This document shows, in pieces, positions 13,991-35,849 of a DNA stretch of 35,849 nucleotides (its first letter is position 1; every line of letters begins with the position of its first letter). The stretch covers positions 1 to 35,849 of the forward strand of contig JAJHQJ010000011.1 in the NCBI GenBank assembly GCA_020833415.1. Direction: 5' to 3'. Below the pieces are notes generated by a model. It saw only the letters and a program-made list of their open reading frames with translations. It was not told where the DNA came from and made no database searches. Origin of the DNA: Desulfurococcaceae archaeon. Lineage in GTDB: Archaea > Thermoproteota > Thermoprotei_A > Sulfolobales > NBVN01. The translations under genes were made by a program, and so were the position numbers.

Positions 13991-15181
13991 GTGGGTAGGA
14001 AGGTAATACCCCTATCGGGGAACCACGCAGTAGCCTACGCAGCTAAGGCCGTAGACGTAGACGTAATCGCAGCCTACCCGATCACACCTCAGACAGCAGT
14101 AGTCGAGAAGCTGGCTGAGTTCGTAGCTAACGGGGAGCTGGATGCAGAGTTCATACACGTAGAGTCGGAGCACTCAGCCCTCTCAGCAGTTGTAGGGGCT
14201 TCAGCAGCTGGTGCTAGGGTGTTCACAGCGACCTCAGCTCAGGGGCTCCTACTGATGTACGAGATAATGCACATAGCCTCAACCATGAGACTACCGGTAG
14301 TTATGTCTATAGCTACTAGGGCCATATCGGCACCGATCAACATATGGTGTGACCACAGCGACTTCATGGCCGCGTCAGATACCGGGTGGGTGATGTTCAT
14401 GGCCTTGAACGCCCAGGAGGCTCACGACCTAACCGTAGCTGCCTACAGGATCGCGGAGGACCCGGAGGTGGAGCTACCGGTAGCTGTAGGCTACGACGGC
14501 TTCTGGCTCTCACATACTGTGGAGCCCGTGGAGGTCCTAGATACGGACGAGGCCCTCAAGTACGCACCTAAGAGGTATAGGCGGTACGTTCTAGACCCCG
14601 AGAGACCTATAACTATGGGTCCGCTAGCCTCACCCGATTGGTACTTCGAGTTCAGAGTACAGCTCCACGAAGCTGTTGAGAAGTCCCGGGAGGTTATCCT
14701 CAGGGCGTTCGACGAGTTCGGGAGGAGCTTTGGGAGGACCTACAGACCCGTAGACGGGTACTACACTGAGGATGCAACTGTAGTACTGATCTCGATGGGT
14801 AGTGCCTCCGGGACAGCCCTAGCCTACGTTGAGGAGGCTAGGAGGTCTGGCGTTAAGGTAGGGCTAGTTAACGTTAGGCAGTTCAGGCCCTTCCCTGAGG
14901 AAGAGCTCTACAAACACGTAGAGAGGGCTGGGGTGGTAGCTGTGGTCGATAGAGCTATCAACTCGGGCTCAGCATTCGTAGGCCCTCTATACTCTGACGT
15001 AGCGCTAACCTTCTTTAAGAGAGGGTTCGACATCCCGGTACTGGACTTCGTGGTAGGCCTCGGCGGTAGGGCTGTTACTAGGAGGGATTTCGACGAGATA
15101 ACTAGGAGGTCCCTAGCCTACCTAGGTAAGAGGATGAGGGACGTTAAGCAGCACTACGCTTTCATCGGGGTGAGAGAGTGA
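13991..15181 (+). CDS. porA: 2-oxoacid:ferredoxin oxidoreductase, alpha subunit
   Basis: AAYPITPQTAVVEKLAEF...EFIHVESEHSALSAVVGASAAGARVFTATSAQGLLLMYEI. Confidence 0.93.
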   Translation: MGRKVIPLSGNHAVAYAAKAVDVDVIAAYPITPQTAVVEKLAEFVANGELDAEFIHVESEHSALSAVVGASAAGARVFTATSAQGLLLMYEIMHIASTMRLPVVMSIATRAISAPINIWCDHSDFMAASDTGWVMFMALNAQEAHDLTVAAYRIAEDPEVELPVAVGYDGFWLSHTVEPVEVLDTDEALKYAPKRYRRYVLDPERPITMGPLASPDWYFEFRVQLHEAVEKSREVILRAFDEFGRSFGRTYRPVDGYYTEDATVVLISMGSASGTALAYVEEARRSGVKVGLVNVRQFRPFPEEELYKHVERAGVVAVVDRAINSGSAFVGPLYSDVALTFFKRGFDIPVLDFVVGLGGRAVTRRDFDEITRRSLAYLGKRMRDVKQHYAFIGVRE

Positions 15182-16125
15182 GCTCCGTAACCATAGCTAC
15201 TCTACCTAGGGAGGAGCTCCTAGCACCTGGTCACAGGATGTGCCAGGGCTGTGGAGCGGCCATAGTAATGAGGCACCTACTTAAGGCCCTAGGTAAGAAC
15301 GTGATAATAGCCCATGCAACTGGTTGCGTTGAGGTTACAACAACCCTCTACCCGGAGACAGCCTGGAGAGTTCCCTGGGTACACGTAGCCTTCGAGAACG
15401 CGGCCGCGGTTGCCTCAGGTATCGAGGCAGCAATTAAGGTGCTGAAGAGGAAGGGGGTTATAGAGAGCTCGAAGAAGGTTAAGGTAGTTGCAATAGGGGG
15501 TGACGGCGGTACCGTAGACATAGGTCTGCAGGCCCTCTCCGGGATGCTGGAGAGAGGGCATAACATACTCTACGTACTCTACGACAACGAGGCATACATG
15601 AATACGGGTATCCAGAGGAGCGGTGCTACACCGATGTATGCCTGGACCACTACGACCCCAGCTGGTAAGGTGTGGAGGGGTGAGTGGAGGAGGAAGAAGG
15701 ACATAGTATCAATAGTTAGAGCCCACGGGGTACCCTACGCTGCGACGGTCAACTTCGCCTACATAACGGACTTCTACACCAAGATTAGGAAGGCGGCAGA
15801 GATCGAGGGGCCGACGTTCATACACGCGTTCGCCCCTTGCGTACCTGGGTGGAGGTACGAGCCCCACCTCACCGTTAAGATAGCTAAGCTAGCCGTTCAA
15901 ACAGGTATCTGGGTAAACTACGAGATCGAGAAGGGGGTCTTCAGGGTAACGACCCCAGTACCTAGGAGACTACCTGTAGGGGAGTACCTAAAGCTTCAGG
16001 GTAGGTTCGCTCACCTAACTAAGGAGGAGATCGAGACAATACAGAGGATCGTTGACGAGGACGTAGAATACATAAACAAGCTAGCCGGAGCTACGGTAAT
16101 AGGACCAGTTGAGAGGAAGGGCTAA
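15178..16125 (+). CDS. porB: 2-oxoacid:ferredoxin oxidoreductase, beta subunit
   Basis: GHRMCQGCGAAIVMRHLLKALG, TPP motif GGDGGTVDIGLQALSG...DNEAYMNTGIQRSGATP. Confidence 0.94.
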   Translation: MSSVTIATLPREELLAPGHRMCQGCGAAIVMRHLLKALGKNVIIAHATGCVEVTTTLYPETAWRVPWVHVAFENAAAVASGIEAAIKVLKRKGVIESSKKVKVVAIGGDGGTVDIGLQALSGMLERGHNILYVLYDNEAYMNTGIQRSGATPMYAWTTTTPAGKVWRGEWRRKKDIVSIVRAHGVPYAATVNFAYITDFYTKIRKAAEIEGPTFIHAFAPCVPGWRYEPHLTVKIAKLAVQTGIWVNYEIEKGVFRVTTPVPRRLPVGEYLKLQGRFAHLTKEEIETIQRIVDEDVEYINKLAGATVIGPVERKG

Positions 16126-16910: not shown

Positions 16911-19900
16911 GGCCGACCAGCCCCAGTTCCGATAGGTCTCTGTATAGCTCTGATACGACCTCGGAGTACTCCTTACGACCCTGTTCAACCATATCCATCT
17001 TCTGCTCAAGCTCCCTAGTCCTCTCCTCGCTAACCAGTTCCCTAAACCTACTGGTGAGGTACCTGTAGACCTCTATACCAAGGGGCATTGGGATTAAGTA
17101 CCCGGTACCCCTGGTCCTTATAGCGTAGCTCCTCTTCAGTATAGTCTCGACTATTTTCGAGTACGTGCTAGGTCTACCTATACCCACCTCCTTCATCCTC
17201 CTAACCAGTGTTGCCTCGGTATGTGGAGGCCGGTCACTCCTGTAGAACAGCCTAAACTTAGTAGCTGGGTACCTACCGATATCCAGGCTCCTCCTCAACT
17301 TAAACCTCCTATCGTACTTTAGGAAGCCCTCCCTCCTAGCCTCGACGTAGAGGGTAAGAGGTGCTGACTCAAGTTCGTAGACCTCACCGTCCTTCAGTTT
17401 TACGACGGCCCTACACCTTAGGTGCTCCACGGTTACCTCAGCATCAACCATCTGGGAGGCTACGAACCTGCGGAATATGGCGTCGTAGACTGAGAAGTGC
17501 TCCTTACGTAACTTAATCACGGGCTCTATGATTCCCTCCTCGATAAGTCTCCTAAGGGCATCGGAGTCTATAGGCCTCGTGGGTCTTATAGCCTCGTGGG
17601 CCCCGCCCTCACCCCAAGTTCTTGGAACGAAGAGCTCCCTGTACCTCTCGCCCTCAGCCTGCCTAAGGTACTCCTCAGCAACTCTTATACCTACGTCGGA
17701 AACCCTAGTGCTATCGGTCCTGTGGTACGTGATGAAACCCGCCTCGAAGAGATCCTGGAGTACCTCCATGACCCTCGGGACCGGGATCCCGAACCTAGCG
17801 CTTAGCTCCGATAGAGCTACATCAGTAGTAAATGGGGGCTCCGGCTTGATCCTTAAATCCTTCCTAGTCTTCTCGTAGACCTCTACCTCCACCTGTTCTA
17901 TATCGCTAGTCCTAACACCGCTTAGTTCCTTAGGTAACTCGAAGACTAGTTCTACTTCTAGGCCTTCTACAGATACTGAGAGGTACTTCCTCCGCGTCTT
18001 CCTGTACATCTCGGTAGCCTCTATTACCCAGCCAAGTACCGGTGTCTGAACCCTCCCAGCGGAGAGGTTTCTGTAGGAGATCGGGTACTCCCTACATAGG
18101 GTCCTATACCTATCGTAGCTAGCGTTAGTACGCGACGATACGATCTCACTGCAGAAGAGTCTCCAGAAGTCTTCCTGGAGTAACCTCGACAGTGAGAAGC
18201 CTATCCACCTATCCTCGACTCTCCTCACTAGCTGAGCCCTAACTAGGTCTACGTTAACCTCCCGGGGGTTGGCTATAGCGTTCAGGAGGGCTCTCTTAGT
18301 TACCTCGTGGAACTCAACACGCTTCACATCGTTGTTGAAGGGCCTTACGGCATTCACTATATCGTAGGCTATCTTCTCACCCTCGGTATCCGGGTCGGTC
18401 CCGACGAGGACCTCGTCAACCTCCCTAGCTACCTCCCTGATAGCCTCGATCACGTCTGCGGAGTCCATTACGTTCGGGGAACCGCAGTACGGGCAGAGTC
18501 TGCCCTCCTTAAGTTCCTCAGTAAACTGCCGTCCGCAGTTCGCACACCTCTTAATAGAGGTGTACACGGGTACGTACCTTCCGTTCCGTACGGCGATCCC
18601 GTAGACGTCTGCCCACCCCCCTGAGGGTTCTGCATGTAGGTGTAGGTCCCCCGTAACCAGCTCGTAGACATGTCCTCCGGTAGCTGTTATAAGTATGGTC
18701 TGATTACCTAAGCTAACCTCGTATACACGTAGACGTCCATACTCCTTAACGCTGGGCCTCCCGAAGAACCTAGCTATGGTCCTAGCCTTATTCGGGGATT
18801 CAACAACGAGTAGGGAGGTCTTAAACTCCAGTCCCCTCAGCTTCGATAGCTCCTCCTTAGTTATAGCCTCCGTCCGTATTAACCTGATCAGCTCCCTATC
18901 CCTATCTACCTCGGCGAGCACCTCGTTCAACCTCCCCTCAACGTCCGCGTAGTTGGAGAACCTGAAGTCCTCGATAACCCAGGACAGCCTTCTCTCAAGT
19001 CCTCTAACTAGCCTCGGGTCATCTACAACTACAACCGAGATACCCCTACTAATACCACCTAGGTAGAGCCTAGAGGTCCTCCCACTAGCCTGTATGTATG
19101 TCGGGGCGTCAGGTATCAGTACGTAGAGCCTCCCATCCTCCGCAACTACAGCTACATCAGGTAACTTTGTAAGCTTCTCGACAACGTCCCTCCTCCTCAC
19201 CAGCTCCCCAACCCTCGCGAGTACCTCAGCAAAGGTCCTCTCAGTGGATGTCTCGGGGGGTCTCACCCCCCTAGCTACCTCCCTTAAGTGCTCTACTACC
19301 AGTGACCCAGCCCTCCTAATAGCCCTCCTAAGCTTCACTAGAGATGCCTCGAGGAAGTCCCTAGTACCCTCATCCTCAACTACTTCAACAAGAAGCGGTA
19401 GGAGTCTTAACACATCCGTGACGTCTAGTTCCTCGATCTGTAGCCCAACTTTATGCCTAGGGACTCCAGCGAACACTGCGTATCTAATGTGCTCCGGTAG
19501 GTCCAGACCCCTAACTAGGACTCCATAGTATGTAGCAACACCGACAAGTACGTCCACCTCTCCGGATGTGAACCTATCGAGAACCTCGGCCTTCCTACTG
19601 TGGACGGCCTCGGCCCTTACCCCAGAGGACCTAAGGAACTCAGCCAGCTTGTTCGCGTACTCTATACCCCTGTCTACGGGGACGTACACTAGACCTCCCT
19701 TACCGAGGGCCTTAACTACCCTGAGTACCCCCTCCTCAATACTCCGTGAGGGGATTACGTAGAGGTCGTACACGTTCCTAATTAGTTCAGGCCTAGCGCC
19801 AACCTCAAACCCGAGGAGTTCCCTAAAGAGTCTAGACCTAACCCCCCGCGGGTTCCCCGTTGCTGACGATATCACTAAGATCGAGGAGACCCCCTTAATC

Positions 19901-30938: not shown

Positions 30939-31045
30939 CGACCCACCAAACCCCCTAGCCCGAGCTAGGAAAAAAGCCTTTCAGGGAATTCCACTTAGTG
31001 GGTTAACTTATTTCTACGTAATAGGCTATGCTCTAGGGGGTCTCC

Positions 31046-31531
31046 GTGGGGGTTTCAGAGTACCCGGATGAGGTTAGGACCCACACAGCCCTCCACATAC
31101 TTAAGGGAGCTGTTGTGAGGGTCCTCGGGGAGGGGGCTATGTGGACAGCCTCCGTCTACGCAGAGGGTAGACACGGGAGGCTTACGGTACAGTTCGATAG
31201 GAAACCGACAGATGAGGAGGTTAGGGCTATAGAGGAACTGGCCAACGCTAAGGTAGCTGAGGACCTCAGGATAGAGGTTAAGGTACTACCTAGGGAGGTT
31301 GCTGAGAGAACATACGGAAACGTAATCTACGACCTCTTCCCCGTACCTCAGCACATTAAGGAACTGTACATAGTGATAGTCTACGATAAGGACGGAAGTA
31401 TCTGGAACATAAACGCCTGCAACAAGCAACACCTACCATCAGCTAGGTACATAGGTAGGATTAAAGTAGGTAAGGTTAGGTTCAGGCAGACGAAGAAACT
31501 CCTAGAGATACCCTTCGATATAGAGCCCTAG
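31046..31531 (+). CDS. AlaX-like alanyl-tRNA editing domain protein
   Basis: RTHTALHILKGAVVRVLG (HxxxH) and CNKQH (CxxxH). Confidence 0.7.
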   Translation: MGVSEYPDEVRTHTALHILKGAVVRVLGEGAMWTASVYAEGRHGRLTVQFDRKPTDEEVRAIEELANAKVAEDLRIEVKVLPREVAERTYGNVIYDLFPVPQHIKELYIVIVYDKDGSIWNINACNKQHLPSARYIGRIKVGKVRFRQTKKLLEIPFDIEP

Positions 31532-31629
31532 CCCAAACCAAGGGGTGTTCCAGCACAGAATTCACCATACCTAGGGTAACCATTCCCAGAGTACCGACCC
31601 CTTCAGAGGAGTTCTAGAGCCGACCTCCT

Positions 31630-31735
31630 CCCCGCCCTAGAGGGTGTGGTTCCCTCCAGGGCAGCTCGTGGGTTCCTCGCATCTATTCAGGTCTACATAT
31701 GTCATCCGCAGGGTAGCCAGGGTGGTCAGAGATCT
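31630..31735 (-). mobile_element. tnpB 3'-end / omegaRNA-like remnant (remnant B)
   Basis: Minus strand: ...LATLRMTYVDLNRCEEPTSCPGGNHTL*; hairpin GCCCTGGAGGG-aaccaca-CCCTCTAGGGC then GGGGAGGAGGTCGG, typical of archaeal IS200/IS605-family right ends. Confidence 0.65.
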
Positions 31736-31868
31736 CCCACCGGACTAGGTCTTTCCCATATCTGCGGTTGCCGATCCCGCATCCCCGTGGAGGGCTTGGG
31801 GACAACCACATCTACCCGACCTCATCACCGGGGCACTACGGTAGCTACTTCAGGTGCTGTAGTTCGAT

Positions 31869-32597
31869 TTATTCGAGCCCCCATTTAAGGACCTTCAGCG
31901 TAGCTATAGCCGTAACTACAAGCCACACAACTATAGATGCCGTACATAGCTCTACCGGAAGCGTGGAGACACCTAGACTTAGAAACTTCGTAACCTCAGC
32001 TAGTGCGACCGTCGGTACTACTACAGATGCAGTTCTCAGGGGTTCTGGTATCATTGCTGGTGGGTAGAGAACAGGTGGTAGGAATGTTGTTAGTGTTGCA
32101 AGGGGGTTTGTGACAGCCGAGATATTCACGGGGTTCCTGATCCTGAGGACTATTGCTAGCGATAGAAACGCCCCTAAGACCATGGCGATGAGCGAGACCG
32201 GTAGGGCTACTACTACTGCGGGTGTTAGGTCAAAGCCCCACACAACCATTAGCACCATGAGCACTAGGATACCAGTTAGAAGTGGTGGTGAGGTACCTAC
32301 TGTAAGACCTATGAAGTATTCTACAAGCTTAAGTGGTGAGGCAACGAGCCTCTCCCACTCCTTGGAAATCCTGTCGTACCCGACGAACTGCGCGATGATG
32401 TTAAGACCGAAGCCCCAGCCGGAGATAACTATATATACAGGTATCAAGACCCTTACAGCTGCGGAGCCTCCCCATCCGAGGGCTAGAAGCAGCACGCCTA
32501 GGCTGAACATGATGTTCTGGACTATCCACATCCACTGCCTTCTAAAGACTGTGAAGTTGAGTAGTGCCGCACCTAGGGTTCTCCACAGGGTCCTCAT
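31869..32597 (-). CDS. ABC-2 type transporter permease
   Basis: Six-helix hydrophobic protein partnered with adjacent ATPase; RISKEWERLVASPLKLVEYFIGLTVG. Confidence 0.85.
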   Translation of the reverse strand: MRTLWRTLGAALLNFTVFRRQWMWIVQNIMFSLGVLLLALGWGGSAAVRVLIPVYIVISGWGFGLNIIAQFVGYDRISKEWERLVASPLKLVEYFIGLTVGTSPPLLTGILVLMVLMVVWGFDLTPAVVVALPVSLIAMVLGAFLSLAIVLRIRNPVNISAVTNPLATLTTFLPPVLYPPAMIPEPLRTASVVVPTVALAEVTKFLSLGVSTLPVELCTASIVVWLVVTAIATLKVLKWGLE

Positions 32598-33478
32598 CTC
32601 CTCCCACCTACCATGTACAGGTATACGTCCTCCAGCGTAACTTCTTTAATAGTGAACGAGCTCGGTTTACAGACCTCCACTAACTGCCTTACGTTACCGT
32701 CATCCCTGGCCCACGTAATTACCCTCTCACCTAGGTCTATGTAGGTACTGTCTAGGCACCCCCTATCCACCCCCTCTAGGATAACTCTAAACCTATACGG
32801 GAGCGTGGATAGAAGCTCCCTCGGTTTACCACTAGCTATAACCTCACCGCTATTTATGAAGATTACGTAGTCAGCTACTAGCTGAGCCTCCTCGAGCATG
32901 TGTGTTGTTAGTAGAATAGTCGATCCGAGAACCTTCGTAGAGTCCTTAACCGCCTTGAGTACGGTGTACCTAGCCTCGATATCTAGGCCTGTAGTAGGCT
33001 CGTCGAGGAATACTACGTCAGCATTCGATGCTAGTGCCGCTGCAGCGAGGGTCCTCCTCCTCTCACCACCGCTTAAAACCCTTAGAGGTCTCCTACTAAC
33101 GTTCTCTAAATCCAGGAGCTCTATCCACCTCCTAGCCTCCCTCCTAGAGTCAAAGTAACTGAGACCCCTCATCATGAGGCTGTAGGCTATGAACTCGTAC
33201 GGTGTTATATCACCTGGGCTACCGTAGTCCTGGGGTAGGTACGCTATCCTCTTCCTCACCTCCTTAAAATCCCTAACAACGTCAAACCCTGCAACACGCG
33301 CAAACCCCTTACTAGGTCTAAGAAGAGTTGCCAGTATTCTAATGGTCGTAGTCTTCCCAGCTCCATTAGGACCTGCAAGTACGGCTATACTCCTCTCCCT
33401 AATACTGAGCGACACTCTCTTAACAGCCCAGAAATCCCCGAACCTCCTACCTAGGTCAACGGCCTCTATGGCGTACAT
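32594..33478 (-). CDS. ABC transporter ATP-binding protein (ORF track starts at 33526; Met at 33478 preferred)
   Basis: GPNGAGKTTTIRILATLL, LSGGERRRTLAAAALASNADVVFLDEPTTGLD. Confidence 0.93.
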   Translation of the reverse strand: MYAIEAVDLGRRFGDFWAVKRVSLSIRERSIAVLAGPNGAGKTTTIRILATLLRPSKGFARVAGFDVVRDFKEVRKRIAYLPQDYGSPGDITPYEFIAYSLMMRGLSYFDSRREARRWIELLDLENVSRRPLRVLSGGERRRTLAAAALASNADVVFLDEPTTGLDIEARYTVLKAVKDSTKVLGSTILLTTHMLEEAQLVADYVIFINSGEVIASGKPRELLSTLPYRFRVILEGVDRGCLDSTYIDLGERVITWARDDGNVRQLVEVCKPSSFTIKEVTLEDVYLYMVGGRR

Positions 33479-33527
33479 CCGTTTTCCCACATAGATCTGG
33501 AGAAGCCTCGTCAGATTTAGCCCCATC

Positions 33528-33581
33528 TGCTGAGTCTCCTAAGCAAAACACTTTCTACCTATATGCTTAGGAAACTCAGCA
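33528..33581. promoter_or_regulatory. Paired 18-bp dyad operators flanking the divergent promoter
   Basis: 33528-33545 TGCTGAGTCTCCTAAGCA and 33564-33581 TGCTTAGGAAACTCAGCA: each TGCTNAG-N4-CTNAGCA, and inverted copies of one another with one mismatch; 18-bp spacer with TATA-like CCTATATG. Confidence 0.8.
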
Positions 33582-33597
33582 AATTACCTTATCTACG

Positions 33598-34977
33598 TTG
33601 AGTATAGTAAATCTATGGGTGGTGTACTTGGGTGAGCAGAGCGGTAGCGATGTTGAGGAGCTAGTCTTCAGCTCCCTAAGTCATAGAATCAGGAGGATGA
33701 TTATACTAACCCTCGGTGAGAGGGGTAAGAGGAGCTTTACGGAGTTAATGGAGGAACTAGGTATCGACGATACGGGTACCTTAACGTTCCACCTTAGGAA
33801 GCTGAGCGGCCTAATCACGAAGACGGGTGACGGCTACTACACGCTTACAGAGCTGGGGCGGAGAGCCTACGCCATACTAAAGTCTCTTAGGGTTAGCGGT
33901 GAGGAGAGCAAGGAGGTTAGAGCTAGTGCTACAAGTGCTAGACCCTCCAGTACCACCGATGTAAAGCCAGACCTCGTCGTTCTCAGCGATAGGCTTAGCC
34001 TTAGAATTAGTAGGGAGCTTCTCGAGAGGGTTAGGGCTACGGGTAGGAAGCTTCTGGTGAAGGATGTTGTGAAAGTCGAGGTAGCTGACGACGTTGATGA
34101 AGATCTCTTTAACGAAGTTGTAGAGTCTATACAGGATGTTGTAACACTCAGGGTCCCTAAGCACCTAGAGGCTACTGCCCAGCTTAAGGCTAGGGATGTC
34201 CTCAACGTTGTCAGCTCTAAAGTGAGGGCGCCGATACCCTCAATTGCGGACCTAGCTACTAGCATTGTAGAACCTATAGTGAGTACAGTTACGCGCGTAG
34301 TAACCTCGGTAACACCACTGCTACTGACAAGGGTTAGTAAGGGTGGGGAACTCCTGTACAGTACGTCCTTAGATATTGTTAAGAGCTTGGAGCTGGATAT
34401 CGACGGCGGTTCCATCGAGGTATCTCAGGGGGATGTAGGTAAGCTCGAGGTCTACAGCAGTAGATTTAGTAGATGCGACTTCGACGTAGATGGGGAAGGT
34501 GGTGAGCTGAGAATTGACTTAAGGGGCTGTGAGGCGTACGTAACCCTACCTAGAGTAGCTTTAGAGAGGATAGGTGTCGACCTCTCTGGAGGCATCCTAG
34601 AGGTAAGGGTGGATGAGGGGGTGAGGGTCGCTGACCTAAGCCTTAGGGGCGGGGTACTGAGGGTAGATATGGGCGGACTTCAGGACTCGGGTATATCCAT
34701 AGACCTCAGCGGGGGTTTTGTAGAGGCTAGGCTGGGCTACTCAGAGTTTAAGGGGGTATCGAGAGTCTCCATAGACTTGGGCGGAGGTGTAGTTAAGCTA
34801 GGTATGGAGGTCCCGAAGGGGACTTTAGTCAATGTTAACAGGGAGGGTATTGGAGGGTACGCAGATATAGACATCGATGAGGAGCTAAGGAGGGTTGAGA
34901 AATCCGATAGAGTCGTTAATGTAGAGCTAGACGTTAGTGGAGGCTTTGCAGAGATCTCCGCAAAGGTCAAGAAGTAG
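33598..34977 (+). CDS. Winged-helix regulator fused to a DUF4097-like beta-repeat domain
   Basis: N-terminus LVFSSLSHRIRRMIILTLGERGKRSFTELMEELGIDDTGTLTFHLRKLSGLITKTGDGYYTLTELG; C-terminus repeated LSGGxxEVRV/LRGGVLRVDM/LSGGFVEARL/LGGGVVKLGM/VSGGFAEISA. Confidence 0.8.
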   Translation: MSIVNLWVVYLGEQSGSDVEELVFSSLSHRIRRMIILTLGERGKRSFTELMEELGIDDTGTLTFHLRKLSGLITKTGDGYYTLTELGRRAYAILKSLRVSGEESKEVRASATSARPSSTTDVKPDLVVLSDRLSLRISRELLERVRATGRKLLVKDVVKVEVADDVDEDLFNEVVESIQDVVTLRVPKHLEATAQLKARDVLNVVSSKVRAPIPSIADLATSIVEPIVSTVTRVVTSVTPLLLTRVSKGGELLYSTSLDIVKSLELDIDGGSIEVSQGDVGKLEVYSSRFSRCDFDVDGEGGELRIDLRGCEAYVTLPRVALERIGVDLSGGILEVRVDEGVRVADLSLRGGVLRVDMGGLQDSGISIDLSGGFVEARLGYSEFKGVSRVSIDLGGGVVKLGMEVPKGTLVNVNREGIGGYADIDIDEELRRVEKSDRVVNVELDVSGGFAEISAKVKK

Positions 34978-35051
34978 AGGACCTCCAACCTACCCGACGA
35001 CCTCCTTAGTAGTAGCGATCCGTTTGTCCCTAGATGCTCATCCTCACTAAT

Positions 35052-35849
35052 TCATTTTCTCGTTGCACCTAGGGACTTCCTCCTCGCCCACTCCTTCATC
35101 GGTAGCACTGCTACCTCCAGTGCGGGTTCACTGGGCATCGGGGCCAACGGCACAGGCCCCTTGGAAGTTGTATACTTCTTCTCGAGGTTTAACACTGCAA
35201 TTACATCTCTACCAGCTCTAAACCCGCATCTAGGGCATCTGAGTTGCCTCGGGGCATCGCCCCTCATCAGCTTGGAGCCGCAGAACGGGCATGTGGATGA
35301 AGTGTTCCTCGGGTCTACCCTAACCACGGGGACTCCCCTCTCCAGACACTTCTCCTCAATAGCTTTAACCATGCCTCTGAAGCCTGCTTGGTATATCCTG
35401 TGCCTCAGCAGCGGGTCTCTCACATCTCTAACCATGTTCCTGGGGCACTGCTTAGGAAGCTCCTCCAACACGACCACGGCGTTGAGGCTCTTAGCTGTAT
35501 TGGCGATGATGTTTGCGATCTTCGACCTAATATCCCTCTTCCTCCTATGCTCCCTACCACGAGTAGCTCTACCAACATATCCATTGCCCTTAACACTCTG
35601 CACAACTTCCCTGTATCTAGCGTAGCCGGTGGTGATCCTCTTAATCCCCGTCTCGAGAATATACACTTTATCGAGCACCTTGACAGCCACGTTACCCTCA
35701 TTAATATCGACGGAAATAACACGTTTAACACTATTTTCATCAACATTAACAGCCTTGACAAACACGAAGTACACTAGTAGCCTCCTACGTCTATAGTCAA
35801 TCTTTATCTTCGGCTGCGTCCTCAGAGCCCAGCCACCATTGATGTACCT
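35052..35849 (-). CDS. tnpB: TnpB (IS200/IS605-family RuvC-like RNA-guided nuclease), 5' end beyond the window
   Basis: RuvC residues ISVDINEGN, VVLEELPK, GRDVIAVLN; Zn finger CPFCGS...CPRCGF. Frame continues past the called Met: YINGGWALRTQPKIKIDYRRRRLLVYFVFVKAVNVDEN. Confidence 0.9.
   Translation of the reverse strand, partial: RYINGGWALRTQPKIKIDYRRRRLLVYFVFVKAVNVDENSVKRVISVDINEGNVAVKVLDKVYILETGIKRITTGYARYREVVQSVKGNGYVGRATRGREHRRKRDIRSKIANIIANTAKSLNAVVVLEELPKQCPRNMVRDVRDPLLRHRIYQAGFRGMVKAIEEKCLERGVPVVRVDPRNTSSTCPFCGSKLMRGDAPRQLRCPRCGFRAGRDVIAVLNLEKKYTTSKGPVPLAPMPSEPALEVAVLPMKEWARRKSLGATRK

Follow-up and report, generated by a model that had tools for sequence, protein, structure and literature searches.

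A probable six-half-site operator between a winged helix-Toastrack regulator and a divergent ABC exporter in a Desulfurococcaceae archaeon

Results

The DNA between a winged helix-turn-helix (wHTH) regulator gene and a divergent ABC exporter operon, in a Desulfurococcaceae species described as a heat-loving archaeon, probably contains a six-half-site operator; through it the regulator, a wHTH-Toastrack protein, would locally repress both promoters by occluding their TATA/BRE elements, with relief by way of its Toastrack domain. The region lies in contig JAJHQJ010000011.1 (assembly GCA_020833415.1), the whole 35,849-nucleotide stretch of which was analysed and is referred to here as the window.

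Two rare palindromes form the core of the array

The initial annotation described two copies of TGCTNAG-N4-CTNAGCA lying 36 bp apart centre-to-centre, and both are present with no mismatches: dyad 1 at 33528..33545 (TGCTGAGTCTCCTAAGCA, which reads TGCTGAG-TCTC-CTAAGCA) and dyad 2 at 33564..33581 (TGCTTAGGAAACTCAGCA, TGCTTAG-GAAA-CTCAGCA), separated by an 18 bp spacer (33546..33563). The genome-wide scan suggested as a check on the motif returned two exact sites in the host genome (G000; 1,254,310 bases, or 1.25 Mb, in the 85 contigs of an incomplete draft), and both are the window pair. All eight sites with one mismatch fall within open reading frames, one of which resembles ribosomal protein L44e, and the scan found no intergenic exact or one-mismatch dyad elsewhere in the genome. 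Because the one-mismatch sites are all in open reading frames, we rejected a wider regulon for the dyad-binding regulator; the near-uniqueness of the dyad fits a local, autoregulating regulon. Looser matches are common, with 136 places in the genome within two mismatches of the pattern and eight in the window where 1.3 are expected, an excess that is apparently due to codon usage; the claim of rarity is therefore confined to the exact sites and their pairing.

The pair had also been described as a larger inverted repeat that has a single mismatch. The reverse complement of dyad 1 does equal dyad 2 save for one position, but relatives retain the half-sites and the spacing without the larger repeat, which we regard as incidental and rejected as a functional unit.

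The twin dyads are conserved at related loci

Homologues of the regulator are patchily distributed, occurring in 46 of 214 genomes of the order at E 1e-20, and a class-wide search added one outside the order (G217). The closest by identity are in G157 (62%), G158 (51%), G084 (43%), and G053 and G043 (41%). A contig search with an alignment of nine closer proteins identified six named loci, in RSNS17 (a Desulfurococcales archaeon), Ignisphaera sp. RSNS13, an Acidilobaceae MAG, Desulfurococcaceae archaeon AG1, a Thermogladius MAG and a Desulfurococcales MAG. A divergent ABC ATPase adjoins the regulator at loci L006, L016, L017, L048 and L091-L096.

Phylogenetic footprinting gives good support to the core of the original reading, an operator of the divergent wHTH regulator. 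Between regulator and exporter the dyads and their 36-bp spacing are conserved at five orthologous loci, namely the window (TGCTGAGTCTCCTAAGCA-18-TGCTTAGGAAACTCAGCA), L035 (TGATTAGGGCTCTAACTA-18-TGCTGAGAAGCCTCAGCA), L036 (TGGTTAGGATTCTCAGCA-18-TGATTAGCAGACTCTACA), L037 (AGTTGAGCCTCCCCAGCA-18-TGCTGAGAGCTCTCAGCA) and L006 (TGCGGAGAAGACTCTGCA-18-TGCCGAGACGGCTCTGCA); the spacer keeps its length at all five, but its sequence differs among them. A degenerate form of the pair (TGNNNAG-N4-CTNNNCA twice, 18 bp apart) occurs with no mismatches at four places in the 214 genomes, and the reversed control at none. Three of the four are regulator/exporter intergenic regions (the window, L036 and L006), and the fourth is in G108. 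A two-mismatch twin-dyad scan gave mostly chance matches (140 of 214 genomes), and the zero-mismatch scan alone was used to judge rarity. That the palindromes are functionless products of chance could be argued from the frequency of two-mismatch versions in G000, but the exact spacing is kept at five loci and three of the four no-mismatch pairs fall at this type of locus; the probability of such a coincidence is negligible, and we consider it refuted in practice.

The same 54-bp twin operator is found on two contigs of G084 (L037, G084:C77:3188-3241, and G084:C34:6507-6560), as either a duplicated cassette or assembly redundancy.

Six half-sites enclose the likely TATA boxes

Read directly from the sequence, the full array of the window is CTCGTCA-14-TGCTGAG-4-CTAAGCA-18-TGCTTAG-4-CTCAGCA-14-CGTTGAG, a symmetric arrangement of which the dyads are the inner part. 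The outer half-site on the exporter side (33507..33513, minus strand, where it reads TGACGAG) lies 14 bp beyond dyad 1; CTCGTCA is exact in L036 and L037, is replaced by ATCGTCA in L006, and is weak in L035. Its counterpart on the regulator side (33596..33602, plus strand) lies 14 bp beyond dyad 2 and is imperfect, CGTTGAG agreeing with TGCTGAG at five of seven positions, and the equivalents are TGCTTAG in L035, TGCTGAA in L036, and TGACGAG in L006 and L037. Six TGNNNAG/CTNNNCA words occur in the 162 bp examined, where 1.2 are expected and 0.05% of shuffles reach six; one of the six lies within the start of the regulator's coding sequence.

In each 14-bp gap of the array a TATA-like box is caged by a pair of inverted half-sites. 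For the exporter operon the likely TATA box is at 33514..33522 on the minus strand (GGCTAAATC), placed by comparison with L035, L036, L037 and L006, and for the regulator gene at 33587..33594 on the plus strand (CCTTATCT), placed by comparison with L035 and L036, in which the window's ACCTTATCTAC is conserved as CACCTTATCTAC. The cages measure 16 bp on both sides in L036, 13 bp on both sides in L006, 14 bp in L037, and 16 bp on the regulator side in L035. The TATA-like CCTATATG that the dyads had been said to flank is present, but it overlaps the start of dyad 2; we rejected it as a promoter element because it is unconserved in relatives, and the likely TATA boxes are external to the pair. The putative operator unit is the six-half-site array, not the twin dyads alone.

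The placement of the array and TATA boxes also bears on the gene starts. The open reading frame start at 33526 falls in the exporter core promoter and that at 33598 in the outer half-site, so both are probably too far upstream. By comparison with L035 and L036, the exporter ATPase (32594..33478, minus strand) most likely starts at ATG 33478, and the regulator (33619..34977, plus strand) most likely at 33619, 33622 or 33628 instead of TTG 33598. The intergenic length of 72 bp given initially came from these over-extended frames, and the corrected gap is about 140 bp.

Taking 10.5 bp per turn, the spacings of 11 bp within a dyad and 21 bp across a cage place half-sites at 0, 2.0 and 3.05 turns, so that the three belonging to one promoter would share roughly one face of the DNA; between the two triads there are 25 bp, or 2.4 turns. 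We propose that one dimer occupies each 18-bp dyad (7-N4-7), and that further subunits on the outer half-sites would enclose each TATA/BRE. The bound regulator would then exclude TBP/TFB from both promoters, repressing the exporter operon and its own gene, until a signal, plausibly the exporter substrate or the state of the membrane, brings about release; we tentatively assign reception of this signal to the C-terminal Toastrack domain. With TATA/BRE enclosed in this way, the suggested mechanism is steric exclusion of TBP/TFB, and the putative operator encloses these elements at the regulator's own gene, as in archaeal autorepressors that act by occluding them, as far as sequence and comparison can tell.

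Repression is only moderately favoured over activation, because a BRE-side position of the dyads at both promoters would, taken alone, equally suit an activator. For TrmBL1/Tgr, Ptr2 and TFB-RF1, sites activate when upstream of BRE/TATA and repress when downstream (PMC4158304). On this precedent the same protein might, as an activator or dual regulator bound just upstream of the BREs, recruit TFB/TBP, the signal switching on exporter and regulator together. We regard activation as unlikely, as the outer half-sites put the TATA box between bound subunits in most homologues, which suits TBP exclusion better.

The regulator and its recognition helix

The N-terminal part of the regulator is a wHTH of the Pfam DUF7347/HTH_20 kind; DUF7347 (PF24038) scores 45.8 bits against a cut-off of 27.6 in the window protein and matches 26 of 26 homologues. 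An AlphaFold2 model (mean pLDDT 84) has the wHTH at 9-95, a middle alpha/beta domain at 119-199 and a C-terminal all-beta domain. For the last of these Foldseek finds two solved structures of putative Toastrack-type adhesins, 4qrk (E 6e-7) and 4ygu, and a sequence profile search also matches 4qrk (E 2e-4). The Pfam Toastrack models (DUF4097, DUF2154 and DUF2807) find no match in the window protein, and the matches among the 26 homologues are to DUF4097 in two, LiaF-like_C in four and DUF2807 in one, with E up to 1. The wHTH-DUF4097 label given at the outset is right by predicted fold, though the window protein lacks a DUF4097 sequence match.

Foldseek matches of the wHTH domain include PagR (2zkz), SmtB (8qkf) and HxlR. 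ArsR/SmtB and PagR-type wHTH repressors bind short dyads as dimers. The window regulator shares their wHTH fold but has extra middle and Toastrack domains, and its score of 23.3 bits against the curated ArsR/SmtB metalloregulator model NF033788 is below the cut-off of 55, a resemblance of fold only. None of its Pfam or NCBIfam matches is to the GntR family. Literature searches on DUF4097/Toastrack with a winged helix in archaea, and on DUF7347, found no wHTH-Toastrack regulator described. At L044/L096 (G062:C104) the regulator is apparently split, with 14919-15503 coding for the wHTH and middle domain and another frame, 17262-17837, for the Toastrack portion.

That the regulator beside the array is the binder is best indicated by its recognition helix, with which the half-site changes. 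Helix DTGTL goes with TGCTNAG, DTGTM with TGACGAG (or TGCNGAG), DSGTF with TGTGGAG, ES[PS]AL with [TA]GTAAA, and DSSVM with AGTTGAT or TGTGTAG. Among 21 homologues with half-sites picked automatically, similar recognition helices go with similar half-sites (Mantel r 0.35, p 0.006), and this holds when similarity elsewhere in the protein is removed (partial Mantel r 0.36, p 0.003); similarity elsewhere gives only r 0.10 by itself. The automatic N4 pick is spurious for L036, L007 and L044, of which the first two were kept in the test and the third lies outside the alignment. We strongly infer that the adjacent regulator binds the dyads, and the array is very probably its own docking site. Adjacency alone is no proof of this, and another cellular DNA-binding protein could use the operator, with the adjacent regulator merely its target. 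This is very unlikely, given that the half-site bases track the recognition helix of the adjacent protein, that the site travels with the regulator across genomes of several families, and that no further intergenic copies were found in G000.

A common grammar upstream of regulator homologues

With no motif assumed, inverted repeats with 7-bp arms in 38 homologue upstream regions peak at a spacer of 4 (53 against 16.2 +/- 3.9 in shuffles, in 29 of the 38), and a spacer of 14 is also raised (34 against 16.8 +/- 3.7); the regions are partly non-independent, some homologues being close relatives. When each clade's own half-site is used, a convergent N4 dyad matching at 12 or more of 14 positions is present in 19 regions, and a divergent cage occurs as N13 in 12 regions, N14 in 5 and N16 in 4, against at most 0.2 expected from other clades' half-sites and 0-4 at other spacers. 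The clade half-sites were first spotted by eye in the same regions, so this scoring is partly circular; the motif-free spacer test is not.

The caged segment usually has a TATA-like box, for example in L041 (CTCGTCA-GAAGAGCTTATCTT-TGACGAG), L009 (CTCCACA-AAGACCTTATCCC-TGTGGAA) and L040 (CTTTACG-TAATAATATATAAT-TGTAAAG). Many homologues, most of them only 25-45% identical, have this grammar of an N4 dyad and an N13-16 cage upstream; among the homologues, a clear N4 dyad was not found in L009, L054 and L055, nor a strong cage in L098, L102-L104, L016 and L018. The TGTGGAG clade (L046, L050, L011, L008 and L009) has the dyad and/or TATA cage, and a search there found no divergent ABC ATPase resembling that of the window; the operator therefore goes with the regulator and not with the exporter. 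At L041 and L113 (G064 and G063) an ABC ATPase homologue lies downstream on the same strand, and the TGACGAG cage and dyads are still upstream of the regulator.

A broader reading, to which we give about an even chance, is that these proteins form a lineage-wide group of Thermoprotei one-component wHTH-Toastrack regulators sharing one operator grammar (an 18-bp N4 dyad and a 13-16 bp TATA cage). In each clade the half-site letters and a few residues of the recognition helix would have been rewritten together; before FHL, for example, T or V goes with TGC/TGA half-sites, and A or G mostly with NGT half-sites. The result would be an archaeal repressor-operator code that can be read, and portable regulator-operator-exporter cassettes would move between families.

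The exporter and the origin of the cassette

The divergent operon encodes an ABC-2 type exporter, with the ATPase (ABC_tran, 90.5 bits) and a permease as membrane subunit (31869..32597, minus strand; ABC2_membrane_3 at 35.8 against a cut-off of 31.6, ABC2_membrane at 32.4 against 26.9). The best-scoring model, that of DrrA-type drug exporters (TIGR01188), is below its cut-off (212.9 against 312.45 bits).

The regulator and ABC ATPase were not found in any of six same-genus genomes; as several are incomplete, absence is not proven in each. In five same-genus genomes the XdhA-like gene next door shows 82-86% identity, and synteny ends just to its right in the four compared. In the regulator tree the window protein groups with those of G157 and G158, from another family and one labelled Ignisphaera (support 100/99), and the cassette, operator included, was probably acquired laterally.

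In four same-genus genomes, window positions 30948-35849 have no DNA match beside the XdhA-like gene, and the segment is either a genus-absent island or a rearranged contig end. It carries the exporter, the regulator, a gene for an AlaX-like small protein (31046-31531, plus strand; similar to the editing domain of alanyl-tRNA synthetase/AlaX, with scores far under the family cut-offs) and a TnpB-like RNA-guided nuclease gene (35052-35849, minus strand), which adjoins the apparently acquired cassette and runs off the contig end.

The TnpB-like gene 1.5 kb away, the near-perfect larger repeat formed by the pair and the absence of the cassette from same-genus genomes might suggest that the inverted repeats are mobile-element ends, a recombination site or transcript hairpins. 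However, half-sites, spacing and TATA placement are conserved in other families and the larger repeat is not. We rejected the transposon-end idea because the array is conserved in those families' genomes, and consider this whole class of explanations extremely unlikely.

Discussion

By analogy, the nearest functional precedent for the proposed autorepressor is YtrASa of Sulfolobus acidocaldarius, a GntR-family local autorepressor whose core palindrome is accompanied by extra half-sites that contribute to binding (PMC6746942). It too is crenarchaeal, with a very small regulon, a membrane-protein operon and a core semi-palindrome flanked by half-sites; however, it uses a GntR-type HTH and a 14-bp core over the transcription start, downstream of BRE/TATA (PMC6746942), whereas in the window there are half-sites on either side of the likely TATA box at each of the divergent promoters, and the regulator is a wHTH-Toastrack protein. 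The TrmB/TrmBL1/Tgr regulators of Thermococcales are likewise archaeal wHTH proteins with short inverted repeats (TGM, TACT-N3-AGTA) positioned relative to BRE/TATA, including at ABC transporter operons, but they have a sugar-binding C-terminal domain, global regulons, and a single dyad upstream or downstream of TATA, not both (PMC4158304).

One proposal for Toastrack domains is that they pass on signals from near the membrane, among other routes by way of HTH domains fused to or associated with them, and in the lia/PSP envelope-stress systems (DUF4097/DUF2154/DUF2807) they are tied to transcription control, in some bacterial operons with ABC transporters (PMC11237479). Those proteins are mostly membrane-anchored or have separate two-component, PadR, GntR or LytTR partners (PMC11237479); in contrast, the window Toastrack domain is fused C-terminally to the wHTH, with no PSP context in view.

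Few crenarchaeal operators have been defined, and here a pair of palindromes leads to a precise, testable six-half-site model. The family as a whole offers a set of naturally occurring variants that could be used to read protein-DNA specificity. If the sequence comparison and the structural model are right, a Toastrack domain, of the kind associated with envelope stress, would be linked directly to the control of an exporter in archaea.
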